This document shows, in pieces, positions 1,180 to 37,403 of a DNA stretch of 64,000 nt (within the stretch, counting starts at the first letter, position 1; each line of letters begins with the position of its first letter). Source of the DNA: Dictyostelium firmibasis (lineage: Eukaryota > Evosea > Eumycetozoa > Dictyosteliales > Dictyosteliaceae). The position numbers and the translations under genes are program-made. The DNA lies in contig CM069767.1 in assembly GCA_036169595.1 (NCBI GenBank), positions 3,973,501 to 4,037,500 of the forward strand. The letters run 5' to 3'. A model generated the notes under the pieces. It searched no databases. It was not told the origin of the DNA and was given only the letters and a program-made list of their open reading frames with translations.

Positions 1180-1200
1180 TAAGAAAGAAAATGCATTTTT

Positions 1201-1238
<38 letters not shown>

Positions 1239-1350
1239 ATAAATTTAAAATAATTTTTCTTATTTTTTATAAATAAAACAAAAATAATTTATAAATATAT
1301 ATATATAATATAATCACTTTTTATAAAATTAATTTTATATAAAAAGAAGA
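1..1350. other. AT-rich spacer upstream of the tmc-like gene
   Basis: No open frame or RNA gene is recognisable. The stretch is dominated by A and T homopolymers. Slightly more complex patches occur around 660-800 and 940-1140. The last 150 bases before the ATG at 1351 should hold the promoter of the tmc-like gene, in the usual Dictyostelium form of T runs followed by A-rich leader. Confidence 0.6.
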
Positions 1351-6314
<4,964 letters not shown>

Positions 6315-22226: not shown

Positions 22227-23468
22227 ATGAAAAAACTATTTATACAACATGAAAATGATATTTTGTGTGATAGAAAAGATGCTTTTTCTCTCTTTAAAGA
22301 TAATAAAAAATTAAAAAAGAATGAAAGTAATAGAAAAACAATGTCATGTATTTTAATTTTTTCTGGTATTAAAATTGGAGTTGTTATTTATTTTCTATAT
22401 TTATCCTCTTTTATAATTGGTATTATTGGTGTTATTAATATCCCAAAATTTCATTTCTCTGTATGTATAATTTTTTTTTTTTTTTTTTTTTATGAATTAT
22501 TATTAAAAAAAAATTAAGTACATAATTAATACTAAAGTTTGTTTTTCTTTACTACCTAAAAACAGATTAATAATAATAATGATTCATCGTCACATGAACA
22601 ATGGCCATTAGTAATGACAATTGCAGGATTTTCAGTGTTTGGTTTAACATTTATCATTTCATTAATTAGAATTATATCTAGTGATATAACAGACTCTTTA
22701 AAGAATTTTAGAAGTATTGAAAATCAAGTTCTTCAAGATTATATAAATTCAATAGAAGAGAGTACGGTTGAATTGTTTTGTAAATGTGAATGCTACCATA
22801 AATATGAATCAAGTTCAACAACAACAACAACAACAACAACAACACATAATAACACAAAATCAACAACAAAAAAAGTTGTTACTTATAGAGAAGAAATGAA
22901 AATTCCAATAGTAGAAATTAACGATTTAACTAATCCTTTGATTTTTGATGAAATTAATTCACATTGCAGTGATTCTAAATTTTTAAAAGTTTCTTTCTTT
23001 AGGGATTGGATGCCTGCTGATGAAAAATCACAAGTTATCATTAAATCTGTTGTTGATCATTTAACTATAAAGAATGAAAAAAGAGATACTTACTTTAAAA
23101 TTTATTTAGATTTTCAATATGTTGATAAAAAATTTAAAGAACATATACTATTTCCATTATCTTCTTCATCATCACCACCATTTTTATTTAGATATGGTTT
23201 TTACATTTTATCATTATTTGTTTTTATGTATTTACCTTTTGAACTTTATTTTAGATCAAAAATTTATAAATCTGAATTTTCATTTGTAAAATTAATTAAT
23301 GTTGATGACAAACCTATAGATTTCGATAGATTAATGGTCATCCAAGTTCAAAATCAAACTACTCAATTTCAAATATTTGATAATTATTTAACATTAAATA
23401 AAAAACAATTTAATAATAAAGTTTTACAAAAACAACAACAAAACTTTTCCGTGGATATAAATTTTTAG
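22227..23468 (+). CDS. TMEM151-like membrane protein, paralogue A
   Basis: Two exons (22227-22460, 22566-23468) give 378 residues. Membrane helices lie near residues 45-70, 95-115 and 325-345. The central soluble part carries motifs typical of TMEM151-family proteins: CKCECYHK, then a Thr-rich stretch, VTYREEMKIP, FFRDWMP, and NEKRDT followed by FKEHILF. Vertebrate members have the related pattern CYHY, RDW, then RDT with GFKEHML. The biochemical function of the family is unknown. Paralogue B at 36141 has the same intron position after exactly 78 codons, and an almost identical 188-base tract. The first 50 residues (ENDILCDRKDAFSLFKDN) are cytosolic-type. Confidence 0.75.
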
Positions 23469-32832: not shown

Positions 32833-33229
32833 TAAAAAAAAAAAAAACGAAAAAATCATTTGTTAATGGTACAAAACAAGTTTAATTACCAATTGCTCTT
32901 TATTCAAAAAATTGAAAAATAAAAAGGAAATTATTAGTTTCTTTCACTTTATTTTTATTCATTCTTTTTATATTTAAAGTTTTTTAATAAAAAAAAAAAA
33001 AAAATAAAATAAAATAAAAAAAATAAAAAAATTGTACTGTATGTATAATTTTTAAATTTCTAAAAAGTTTATTTTTTTATTTATTTTTTTTGTGCATCAA
33101 ATTCAAAATATCAATATATCAAAATTAAATTTGGTGTAAAAATTAATATTTGGTGTAAAAAAAAAAAAATTTAAATTTTTTCAATTTTTTCAAATTTTTT
33201 TTTTTTTTTTTTTTATTTTTTTATTTTTT
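32833..33229. other. 3' flank of the synthase and left end of the candidate transposon
   Basis: A/T-rich spacer. From 33131 it contains a repeated TTGGTGTAAAAA word and the left arm of the inverted repeat, then T runs up to the transposase stop codon. Confidence 0.6.
33142..33181 (+). repeat. Left inverted repeat of the candidate transposon
   Basis: A 40-base segment starting ATTAATATTTGGTGT, followed by 13 A and TTTAAATTTTTT. Its reverse complement occurs at 35786-35825 with one mismatch. The runs inflate the score, but the ATTAATATTTGGTG core and the identical A-run length are specific. Confidence 0.6.
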
Positions 33230-34409
33230 TTATTTAACAACAAACATCGTTCTTTTTTCTTTTATTTCCATTAATTTTTGTTTTTCAAATTGATAATCAA
33301 ATCCATCATTATGAATTTCTTGTATATCAGCCAACACACTAAGTATGAGGACTATTTTATTCAAGTGTTCTAAATTTCCACGGTAAGTAGTTGAAACTAC
33401 TTTAAAATGGTTTATTTTTAAAAAAAAATTTTCCACATATACACGGTTGGAGCTTACAAAATTATTATGGACTACTTGATCAGGTGTTGGTTTTTCTTTT
33501 TTCTTTTTTGATCTTTTGTGAGGAACCACAAAATTAGGCAAAGATATATAAGCACGATCACCTATAAAATAATATTAAATAAAAAAAATTTGGTTATTAA
33601 CAATAAAAAATATAAATGTATTCATTTCAATAAAGATTAAAATAAATGAAAATAAATGTTATATACTGTTGTAATTACCTAATATCGGAAATTTATCGTG
33701 TCTACGAATCATTCGACCATTGCTATAGTATTGTGGTTCGCCATTATGATCCTTTTCCATATATATTTGATCAGCAATCTTAATATCGTCTACAGCACCA
33801 GGGAACCCTTCTGGATGAAGTAACAATAATCGGTATGATGTAGTGCTTACCTCACAATGGAATTTCACCACATGACTCTTACTTTTACCAGAATAGAATT
33901 TTTTTTGAATTTGGTAATCGATTGGAGTTTCTATATCAATGGAAGTAGAATCGGCTGCAATTGCACGATAATTCACTTTGGTAATGGGATGCTTTAAAAA
34001 GCCAACAGATTCAACAAGTTGTTCATATCTTTGTTCCATTATTTCCTTGCAAACAACCCAAAGAGCATGAATGGTTTCACCATAGTGATTAAGAAATGTT
34101 TTAGGACTAATACCAAAAGTAACACATATCTCGGTGATTGGTAGATATTGCTTCCAATACAAAAGAGTCTAAAATAATAAAAAAAAAAAATAAATGTTAT
34201 TCATTTTTATTTTACACATATTTTAAATCACACATTTCTCTAATTCATACCCAAATAATATGTTTGTCTTTGATTCCTTTGTTTTTTACTTCATCATTAC
34301 ACTCGATTAAATATAATAATTTGTCTATTATATCTGGTTCAAATCCAAGTGAATATAAAATTAAATTAGGTTGTGTTTTTTGTTTTTTACTTGGTCTTGG
34401 GTTTTTCAT
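33230..34409 (-). CDS. DDE superfamily transposase (DDE_Tnp_4/Harbinger type), intact
   Basis: Three minus-strand exons (34409-34251, 34168-33679, 33561-33230) join in phase to give 326 residues. An N-terminal basic segment (MKNPRPSKKQK) and a helix-turn-helix-like region (LPITEICVTFGISPKTFLNH) precede the catalytic core. Candidate catalytic acids are Asp in AIAADSTSIDIETP, Asp in HPEGFPGAVDDIKIAD, and Glu in NRVYVENFF, with the accessory motif GDRAYISLPNFVVPHKR before the last. Harbinger-type nucleases cut and paste DNA using two Asp and one Glu. No frameshift or stop interrupts the frame, so the gene is either recently active or domesticated. The size is similar to HARBI1-like proteins. The call of superfamily is good; the subfamily is tentative. 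Confidence 0.8.
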
Positions 34410-34424
34410 TTTTTAATTTATTGT

Positions 34425-34510
34425 AAATGAATATATTAAATTTTTTTAAATGAATATATTAAATTTTTTTAAATGAACATATTAAATTTTTTTAAATGAA
34501 TATTTTATAT
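34425..34510. repeat. 23-bp tandem repeat, about 3.5 copies
   Basis: The unit begins AAATGAATATATTAAA and continues into a run of seven T. Three complete copies (one with a T to C change) are followed by a partial one. It starts 16 bases upstream of the transposase ATG (minus strand), a place where transposons often carry protein-binding subterminal repeats. Binding is not shown. Confidence 0.85.
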
Positions 34511-34623
34511 TATTTTAAAGGAGGGGGTGAAGAAAAAAATAATAAAACATAAAATTAGACAAATTTCTTATTAAAAATCGATTGGGGTAAAATAATTTTT
34601 TTCTCTGTGTTCAAATTCTATGT

Positions 34624-34663
34624 ATTTAATTTAATTTAATTTAATTTAATTTAATTTAATTTT
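34624..34663. repeat. TTTAA pentamer array
   Basis: About eight direct copies of TTTAA. Simple repeat with no assigned role. Confidence 0.85.
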
Positions 34664-34982
34664 TTAAATTTACCACGAAAATAGGGTTTTTAGAGAATTT
34701 TTTATAAATTGTGTTAATTTTTCCAAAAATAGACTTTATTTTTAAGTATTTTAATTTTTATTTTTATTATGAAACTAAAAAGAGTAATTTTATTTTTAAA
34801 ATATAAAGTTAATTTATTAAATTTTCTATCAAATATATAAATTTGGAAAAAAAAAAAATAAATAATTTTATTTTTAAAATAAAACCCATCCATTTTTATA
34901 AAAAAATATTTTCATTGCGTTACTATACATATTTAAAATATATATATATATTAACATTTATTTTTTATTTTTATATATATAG

Positions 34983-35757
34983 AGGAGGGTGAAATTTTCG
35001 ATATTGACGGAAGTAAATATTTGTTATTATCGGTAAATGGAAAAAGGGAAATGGTCATGACCAGTCACCAGTAGCTCCAAATTCACCACATGAAACAAAG
35101 GCTGGTGAAGAAAAAATGAAATCTGGTGGTTCACCAAATATTGGCCAGCCAGAGGATCTCCTTGATTCACCAGTAATGCCAAGAGTAAAGTTGGAAAAAA
35201 GCTTCATGGATCTTGAGAGTGTCACCTCAGCATCTGGAATGGAGGTTAATTCAAAAAATAATGGATCTGGTACCTATACACACCCATATAGTTTATCAGA
35301 TTGCTCATCAGACACTGTTATTGCGGATAATAATAATAACCTATTTCACAGAATGGTGAAAATCGATTCGTATTATAGTCTAGGCGGTGTCCAAAAAAGA
35401 TTCTATCTACTCTTTCCAAAGTTGTTACACATCAAATTAGAAACTGTGGCCAACGATATTGATGAAAACTCAATAAAATTCCTTTTCAAAAACATTTTAT
35501 CTAGAGAAGATATTGAAACTGGAATCAAAAACATTGAAGACCACAGGTTGGCCAAAAAATACCAAGAGGAGGTGTCCGACATACAAGTGGTGTACAAATA
35601 CCCACCATTATTCAATATATCAAATATTGAAAAAATTGGTGTTGGTGATCGATTGGTGAAAGTGGTCGGTGCTGCAATTTACTGCGTCGATGCAGGCACC
35701 TTAAGAAATAATAATAAAAAAAATAAAAAAAATATAAAATATAAAATAAATAATTAA
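34983..35757 (+). pseudogene. Degraded gene fragment of unknown family within the transposon interval
   Basis: After an acceptor-like TATATATAG, the frame EGEIFDIDGSKYLLLS is open, then hits a stop. From about 35010 a second frame takes over (GHDQSPVAPNSPHETK) and runs through an ATG at 35116 to 35757. A 32-base intron would be needed to join the frames, shorter than usual here, so a frameshift is more likely. The downstream part has protein-like segments, for example FHRMVKIDSYYSLGGVQKRF and YKYPPLFNISNIEKIGVGDR, with noticeably more G and C than neighbouring genes. It ends in a low-complexity Asn/Lys tail caused by the A-rich DNA. The 5' end is missing. I do not recognise the family. Confidence 0.45.
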
Positions 35758-35785
35758 AAAAATAAAAAAATAAAAAAAATAAAAA

Positions 35786-35825
35786 AAAAAATTTAAATTT
35801 TTTTTTTTTTGCACCAAATATTAAT
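35786..35825 (-). repeat. Right inverted repeat of the candidate transposon
   Basis: Reverse complement of 33142-33181 with one mismatch (GGTGC instead of GGTGT). It lies just after the low-complexity tail of the degraded ORF. Confidence 0.6.
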
Positions 35826-35999
35826 ATTAATTTTTTCACAATTTTTATTAAAAAAAAAAAATCACAACTTTTTTTTCACTACAACAACTAAAACATTTTT
35901 GGTTATGACCATGAGCATCAAATTAAAAAAAAAATCACCTCCTAAGACGTTTATTTTTACTTGAAAAAATGGGAATTAATTTTTTTTCATTTTTATTTT

Positions 36000-36140: not shown

Positions 36141-37304
36141 ATGAAAAAAATAATTATTCAAAAAGAAAATGATATTTTAAAATATCAAAGTGATGCTTTT
36201 TCACTCTTTAAAGATAATCCAATTTTAAATAAAAATGAAAGTAATAGAAGAAACATGACATGCATTTCAAGTTTCTCAGGTATTAAATTTGGAATAGTTA
36301 TTTATTTTCTTTATATATCCTCTTTTATTATTGGTTTAATAGGCGCGACAAATATCCCAAAAAATAATTTCTTTGTATGTATTATTATTTTATTATTATT
36401 ATTATTTTAAAGATATTATTTTTAACATATTCATATATAAATATAGGATAATGAATATAAAGTATGGCCAGTAGTTATGACAGCAATAGGATTTTCAATA
36501 TTTGGTTTAACATTTTTCATATCATTAATTAGAATTTTATCGAGTAATATTACAATATCATTAAAGAATTTCAGAAGTCATAATGATCGAGTACTCCAAG
36601 AGTACATAAGTGCAATTGAAGAGAGTACAGTTGAATTATTTTGTAAATGTGAATGTTATCATGAATCAAGCTCAACTACAACTAATTCAGATGGTTCAAA
36701 ATCAACATCTACAACAACACACGTTACCTATAGAGAGGAGATGAAAATTCCAATCATTGAAACAATCAATTCAACTAATCCATTGATTTTCAATGAATTG
36801 AACCAAAATAATAATAGTTCTAAATTTTTAAAAGTTTCTTTCTTTAGGGATTGGATGCCTGCTGATGAAAGATCTCAACTTATTATAAAGTCAGTAGTTG
36901 ATCATTTAACGACAAAGAATGAAAAAAGAGATACTAGATTTAGAATTTATTTGGATTTTCAATATGTTGATAAAAAATTTAAAGAACATATACTATTTCC
37001 ATTATCTTCCTCCTCATCACCACCATTTTTATTTAGATATGGTTTTTACATTTTATCATTATTTGTTTTTATGTATTTACCTTTTGAACTTTATTTTAGA
37101 TCAAAAATTTATAAATCTGAATTTTCATTTGTAAAATTAATAAAAACTGATATCCAAGCTTTAGATTTTGATCAATTAGTAATTCCAATTCAAGGTCAAA
37201 CTACTCAATATCAACCTCTTGATAACTATGAGGTTATGGTCGAAGACCCATATAATAATAATAACAATAATAATTATAATAATAATAACATTTATGTACC
37301 CCAG

Positions 37305-37342
<38 letters not shown>

Positions 37343-37403
37343 ACAACAACAACCAACAGTATCCCTTTCGAAGGATATATCAATCGATATAGATAAATAT
37401 TAA
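36141..37403 (+). CDS. TMEM151-like membrane protein, paralogue B
   Basis: Two exons (36141-36374, 36447-37403) give 396 residues. It has the same plan as paralogue A: an ENDILKYQSDAFSLFKDN start, three membrane helices, then CKCECYHESSS, VTYREEMKIP, FFRDWMPADE and KRDT with FKEHILF. Intron 1 follows codon 78 exactly as in A. The C-terminal tail differs, carrying an Asn run and a long Gln run before SKDISIDIDKY. The A tail ends with the similar SVDINF, so the ends are homologous with repeat expansion in B. Function of the family is unknown; a membrane role is supported by the helices only. Confidence 0.75.

Follow-up and report, generated by a model that had tools for sequence, protein, structure and literature searches.

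The 64,000-nucleotide stretch of Dictyostelium firmibasis DNA analysed here (the window) very probably contains a worn copy of a cut-and-paste DNA transposon that belongs to the PHIS (IS5/PIF-Harbinger-like) superfamily, has few copies, and moved recently. The element most likely represents a new family of an established transposon type. The initial annotation had proposed a DDE transposon with two divergent genes, and this proposal was upheld by three dispersed full copies in the genome.

Extent and genomic copies of the element

Alignment of the three full copies placed the copy in the window at 33127–35846 (2,720 bp), where similarity between the copies stops. The other two lie at C1:7.93 Mb (3,354 bp) and C6:1.94 Mb (3,343 bp). 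All three copies had the same ends, and their flanks were unrelated.

We searched the host genome (12 contigs, 31,455,843 bases, largest contig 9.41 Mb) with transposase exon 2 as query and obtained nine matches at six places, the window included. Matches with 99% identity at C1:7930636 and C6:1941764 lie in the other two full copies; the gene is not single-copy in this genome. The remaining places were C1:4288294 (83%; a diverged relative), C2:207138 (37%), and C4:585410 (a degraded match). A DNA search of the genome, in which 40 of 594 candidates were scored, added an element fragment at C2:3827113. The DNA search gave 195 matches, and most of those listed were short AT-rich stretches from the element ends. 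The published telomeric repeat of D. firmibasis occurs in this assembly at 61 sites, near both ends of C1 and C6 and near one end of C3, C4, and the small contig C8, against none for its reversed control; this placement matches that given in the D. firmibasis TNS-C-14 genome paper. A published D. discoideum miRNA (PMC4894637, Table 2) had no match in the genome at up to 2 mismatches, and D. discoideum was rejected as the host.

The window copy begins 295 bp past the stop (32832) of the preceding gene, which we take to be polyketide-synthase-like. The C1 and C6 copies start ~150 bp and ~25 bp, respectively, from where an adjacent open frame has its 3′ end. Scanning the window against Rfam and for tRNA genes gave no hits, nor did tRNA scans at four loci of the element; there was thus no sign of tRNA targeting. 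Two open frames of the window, 22560–23468 and 36447–37403, have the same orientation and long stretches in common, and look by eye like paralogues; they bracket the polyketide-synthase-like gene and the element.

Terminal repeats and target site

The inverted repeat reported initially at 33142–33181 and 35786–35825 is present, and forms the inner part of a longer repeat that ends at 33127 and 35846. Alignment of the flanks, which had been suggested as a way of fixing the ends, gave these two positions and showed ATT directly outside both (33124–33126 and 35847–35849), a putative 3-bp target site duplication. ATT was present on both sides of the element in 3 of 3 full copies, although it could in principle be the element's own sequence. 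The element ends start with AAA, and each contains a pair of TT(G/T)GTG words, of which the inner begins 23 bases from the end. In the left terminal repeat (33127–33156, + strand) both words read TTGGTGT and lie at offsets 4 and 23. The right terminal repeat of the window copy (35811–35846, − strand) deviates from this arrangement: its two words stand 6 bases further apart, and the inner one carries a single substitution.

Random scatter of the repeat word through spacers, raised in the initial annotation as an argument against a transposon, was not what we observed: a 29-base end pattern with up to three mismatches occurred at 10 sites in 31.5 Mb and at none in the reversed control. A looser 20-base pattern was uninformative (68 sites vs. 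60 in the control). The ten sites consist of five of the six full-copy ends, one end of the diverged relative at C1:4287.8–4289.1 kb, and four solitary ends; the right end of the window copy is missing from them, presumably because of its extra bases. The left end of the diverged relative has the same word layout and spacing with a different spacer, and no right end was seen in its 9-kb locus.

The solitary doubled-word ends (C1:2140032, C5:643816, C3:3525119, and C6:2052727) have little or no element body adjoining them. BLAST beside these four ends detected no element body and only two short, weak DNA matches. On reading the sequence by eye, the end at C5:643816 may retain a short stretch resembling the end of the transposase gene. 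Triplets at the relatives' ends could be read on one side: ATT at locus L024, AAT at the C1:4287.8–4289.1 kb relative, and TTT, TAT, AAT, and ATT at the four solitary ends. Two of these six triplets do not fit ANT.

Transposase gene

As the initial annotation had stated, the window copy contains an open three-exon DDE gene for a protein of 326 aa, the splicing being predicted. The gene lies on the − strand and consists of exon 1 (34251–34409), intron 1 (34169–34250), exon 2 (33679–34168), intron 2 (33562–33678), and exon 3 (33230–33561); both GT..AG introns were deduced from frame and splice signals. Pfam analysis of the protein gave a match to PF13359 (DDE_Tnp_4) at residues 126–293 with E 1.8e-20, and a match to DDE_Tnp_1 with E 4.6e-6; a helix-turn-helix match was below cut-off. 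The catalytic triad is D126/D218/E260, with 91 and 41 residues between its members. D126 is encoded in exon 2; D218 and E260 are encoded in exon 3, within PF13359. On sequence grounds, the transposase is a DDE_Tnp_4 protein of IS5/PIF-Harbinger type. A PDB sequence search with the transposase gave no match, an NCBIfam search gave IS5/IS4 models only, all below cut-off, and a search of viral contigs with the transposase or the second protein revealed no relative.

The transposase is identical in the C1 and C6 copies, and the window copy differs from both by T136I and H180D, encoded in exon 2. The residue after H180 is an aspartate conserved across the seven aligned sequences listed. H180D need not be fatal, because two bacterial sequences have S at this position. 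The 23-bp tandem repeats noted upstream of the transposase gene are real; the array (34408–34522 in the window) occurs in all three copies.

Second gene

The degraded gene described initially in opposite orientation was also confirmed, and corresponds to exon 3 of a gene whose C1 and C6 versions are open. In those copies the second gene is divergent from the transposase gene, has three exons (from predicted splicing), and encodes 364 aa. Alignment with the C1 and C6 copies showed that a 645-bp deletion in the window copy, with its junction at 34928/34929, removed exons 1 and 2, including the start. The exon 3 remnant (34983–35706, + strand) is frameshifted by a 19-bp deletion after 35051.

The second protein was searched whole and as two end parts. 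No Pfam family was found at cut-off and no Myb/SANT match at E up to 10, in keeping with the earlier remark that this protein is not recognisable as Myb; a very diverged Myb/SANT domain is possible. The NCBIfam search with the second protein gave no match, and the PDB search gave a single chance match (E 0.85). In the host genome, exon 3 was found at the three full copies only, and the N-terminal part of the protein matched nothing but these copies, aside from one weak match (E 0.31). A single-sequence model of the C-terminal 125 residues had a mean pLDDT of 36 and was unusable. The loci C6:567759 and C6:775812, which are one segmental duplication (97% identity over 2,956 bp), contain a relic of the promoter and first codons of the second gene, adjoining short tandem repeats.

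Divergence and state of the copies

Over 3,343 aligned bases, C1 and C6 are separated by 11 substitutions and 3 indel events. All but one of these substitutions (A>C, T>G, and one A>G) fall in a single 73-base cluster of the C6 copy, within the spacer that precedes the second gene; the C6 copy is otherwise almost identical to the C1 copy. This cluster is probably a sequencing, assembly, or polishing artefact. When it is set aside, one substitution is left, which lies in the second gene. The small number of differences supports recent movement of these two copies. Against C1 the window copy shows 15 substitutions, and against C6 it shows 20. It is the most worn of the three copies, as indicated by its damaged right end, the H180D change, and a second gene broken by the 645- and 19-bp deletions. 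The initial annotation had taken the intact nuclease gene as a hint of recent activity or domestication. The near identity of C1 and C6 favours recent activity; for domestication of the window copy, which is damaged, we found no support.

The diverged relative at C1:4287.8–4289.1 kb (− strand) has an open 326-aa frame that encodes a transposase 84% identical to that of the element. Its dN/dS relative to the C1 copy is 0.19, and its catalytic glutamate is changed (E260K). This locus is a candidate for either a worn element or a domesticated gene.

Relation to known transposons

The element has a DDE_Tnp_4 transposase with a D,D,E triad, and terminal inverted repeats common to 3 of 3 dispersed copies, as in PHIS/IS5-like elements. 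PHIS groups are defined in PMC4482050 by target duplication: TWA (Harbinger), AT (ISL2EU), none (Spy), CWG and TNA (Nuwa), and ANT (Pangu, and also bacterial IS5). The ATT flanks of the present element fit the ANT of IS5-like relatives and Pangu better than the TWA of Harbinger. PIF/Harbinger elements resemble it in having a DDE_Tnp_4 transposase, two genes, and an end starting with A; however, neither a TWA duplication nor a Myb/SANT second protein was found. The Harbinger parallel drawn in the initial annotation thus stood with regard to transposase superfamily and two-gene layout, and failed with regard to target duplication and Myb protein.

Pangu elements, as described in PMC4482050, resemble the present element in having a DDE protein and a mean length of ~3.5 kb; their 3-bp ANT duplication would fit the putative ATT duplication seen here in 3 of 3 copies. 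The second ORF of Pangu, like the one here, has no known motif according to the Results of that paper, but Myb/SANT according to its Discussion. The ends of Pangu are usually AG or GG, in contrast to AAA here, and the host groups of Pangu named in the text of PMC4482050 include no amoebozoan. We assigned the element to the PHIS superfamily only, because its AAA ends are unlike those of Pangu and the tree was confined to bacterial and host-genome proteins. Two other groups were considered and rejected. ISL2EU elements have an AT duplication, GG ends, YqaJ, and THAP, whereas the present element has AAA ends and no YqaJ or THAP match. Spy elements have one gene, no target duplication, and an AAA/TTT target, whereas two genes and ATT repeats are found here.

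Bacterial relatives were sought through two short motifs, with a query alignment that included a partial frame from a relic on C2. This search found 22 loci; the nine compared showed 24–29% transposase identity. The stretch QKKFYSGK, which also served as a search seed, is common to the bacterial relatives partly by selection, since the loci were found through short motifs. The ends were examined in 19 of the 22 loci, with candidates having equal flanks ranked up. In 10 of the 19, AGAC was found at both ends together with equal 3-bp flanks: ATT in four, ACT in two, AAT in two, GAT in one, and TAT in one, such that eight of the ten are ANT. No AGAC pair with equal flanks scored above threshold in the other nine. 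At locus L079, AGAC ends are present but the flanks differ. Cyanobacterial IS5-type elements (L083, L084, and L086) have a DDE transposase, QKKFYSGK, and 3-bp ANT flanks in common with the D. firmibasis element; however, they are ~1.14–1.15 kb long, with one open frame and AGAC ends, whereas the D. firmibasis element is ~3.35 kb long, with two spliced genes and AAA ends with doubled words.

A tree was built from 9 of the 22 bacterial loci and proteins of the host genome itself; deep placement in it is unreliable because of long branches. Bacteria are the food of the amoeba host. We consider it quite unlikely that the element is an IS5-type insertion sequence of bacterial descent (from a subgroup presumed to be ISL2-like) that gained introns and captured an unrelated accessory gene of a new type, forming a two-gene eukaryotic lineage outside the known PHIS groups.

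Alternative explanations

The element could be a true PIF/Harbinger transposon with a TTA target duplication and a second protein that is a diverged Myb/SANT protein; we regard this as unlikely. The transposase superfamily and the two divergent genes would fit, and when the ends are shifted by one base, TTA appears on both sides of the window and C6 copies. However, the same shift gives TTT on the right of the C1 copy, so that TTA is possible in two of the three copies, and it gives ATA at the C1:4287.8–4289.1 kb relative. The lack of a Myb/SANT match to the second protein, even at E up to 10, also argues against it. It is extremely improbable that the window contains a domesticated host DDE nuclease gene whose inverted repeats arose by chance in AT-rich spacers, given that three near-identical copies with common ends occur at separate positions in the genome, and that the 29-base end pattern is absent from the reversed control. 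The open frame, low dN/dS, and E260K change of the C1:4287.8–4289.1 kb relative are features that a domesticated gene might have, but dN/dS also comes out low during the active phase of a transposon.

Tdd, DDT, and thug are described DNA transposons of D. discoideum (PMC5633606), and thug-S contains an intron and is present in several copies (PMC4894637). Membership of the element in one of these named families is very unlikely. The DDT-B consensus is 5,471 bp long (PMC9012585), and the Tdd-4 transposase is Gypsy-integrase-like (PMC2836005). The transposases of these families are described in PMC5633606 as having no significant similarity to known ones, whereas the window transposase matches Pfam at 1.8e-20. 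The published descriptions most likely set the element apart from Tdd and DDT, and less surely from thug.

Proposed mechanism and significance

For the PHIS transposon that we favour, the transposase would bind the TTGGTG word pair of each end, excise the element, and insert it at an ANT site (here ATT), with duplication of 3 bp. By analogy with two-gene Harbinger elements, the second protein may be an accessory factor for DNA binding or nuclear delivery. Any movement of the window copy would have to occur in trans, through proteins encoded in C1 and C6.

The annotation described in the D. firmibasis TNS-C-14 genome paper identified transposons by tblastx to D. discoideum Repbase entries only; a family of this kind could therefore be missed or annotated as ordinary genes. 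Open-access papers, judged mostly by title and the beginning of the abstract, disclosed no dictyostelid Harbinger-type element. The family is probably undescribed. The function of additional ORFs in PHIS elements is called unknown in PMC4482050. Two nearly identical open copies of a compact element in an easily grown amoeba offer a practical system for studying the function of the second gene of Harbinger-like elements.

Other DDE_Tnp_4 elements in the genome

Another element of the same genome has the DDE_Tnp_4 domain in common with the window transposase, but differs in having a chromodomain exon and many copies in repeat-rich regions. Its domain layout was read in one copy (C1:4695000–4699500), in which locus positions 1190–2679 (+ strand) comprise one exon for the chromodomain (PF00385) and another for DDE_Tnp_4. 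Among the PF13359 matches in the genome, 32 of 57 cover profile positions 1–146, like this element; these 32 are located at C1 4.5–4.8 Mb, near the ends of C2–C6, or on the small contig C7. BLASTP of the window transposase against two other DDE_Tnp_4 proteins of the genome showed little or no similarity, with E 3.3 for the chromodomain-element protein and E 0.003 for the second. In the repeat-rich region C1:4695000–4699500, a frame with hexapeptide repeats of bacterial transferase type (3644–4258, + strand) adjoins the chromodomain element.
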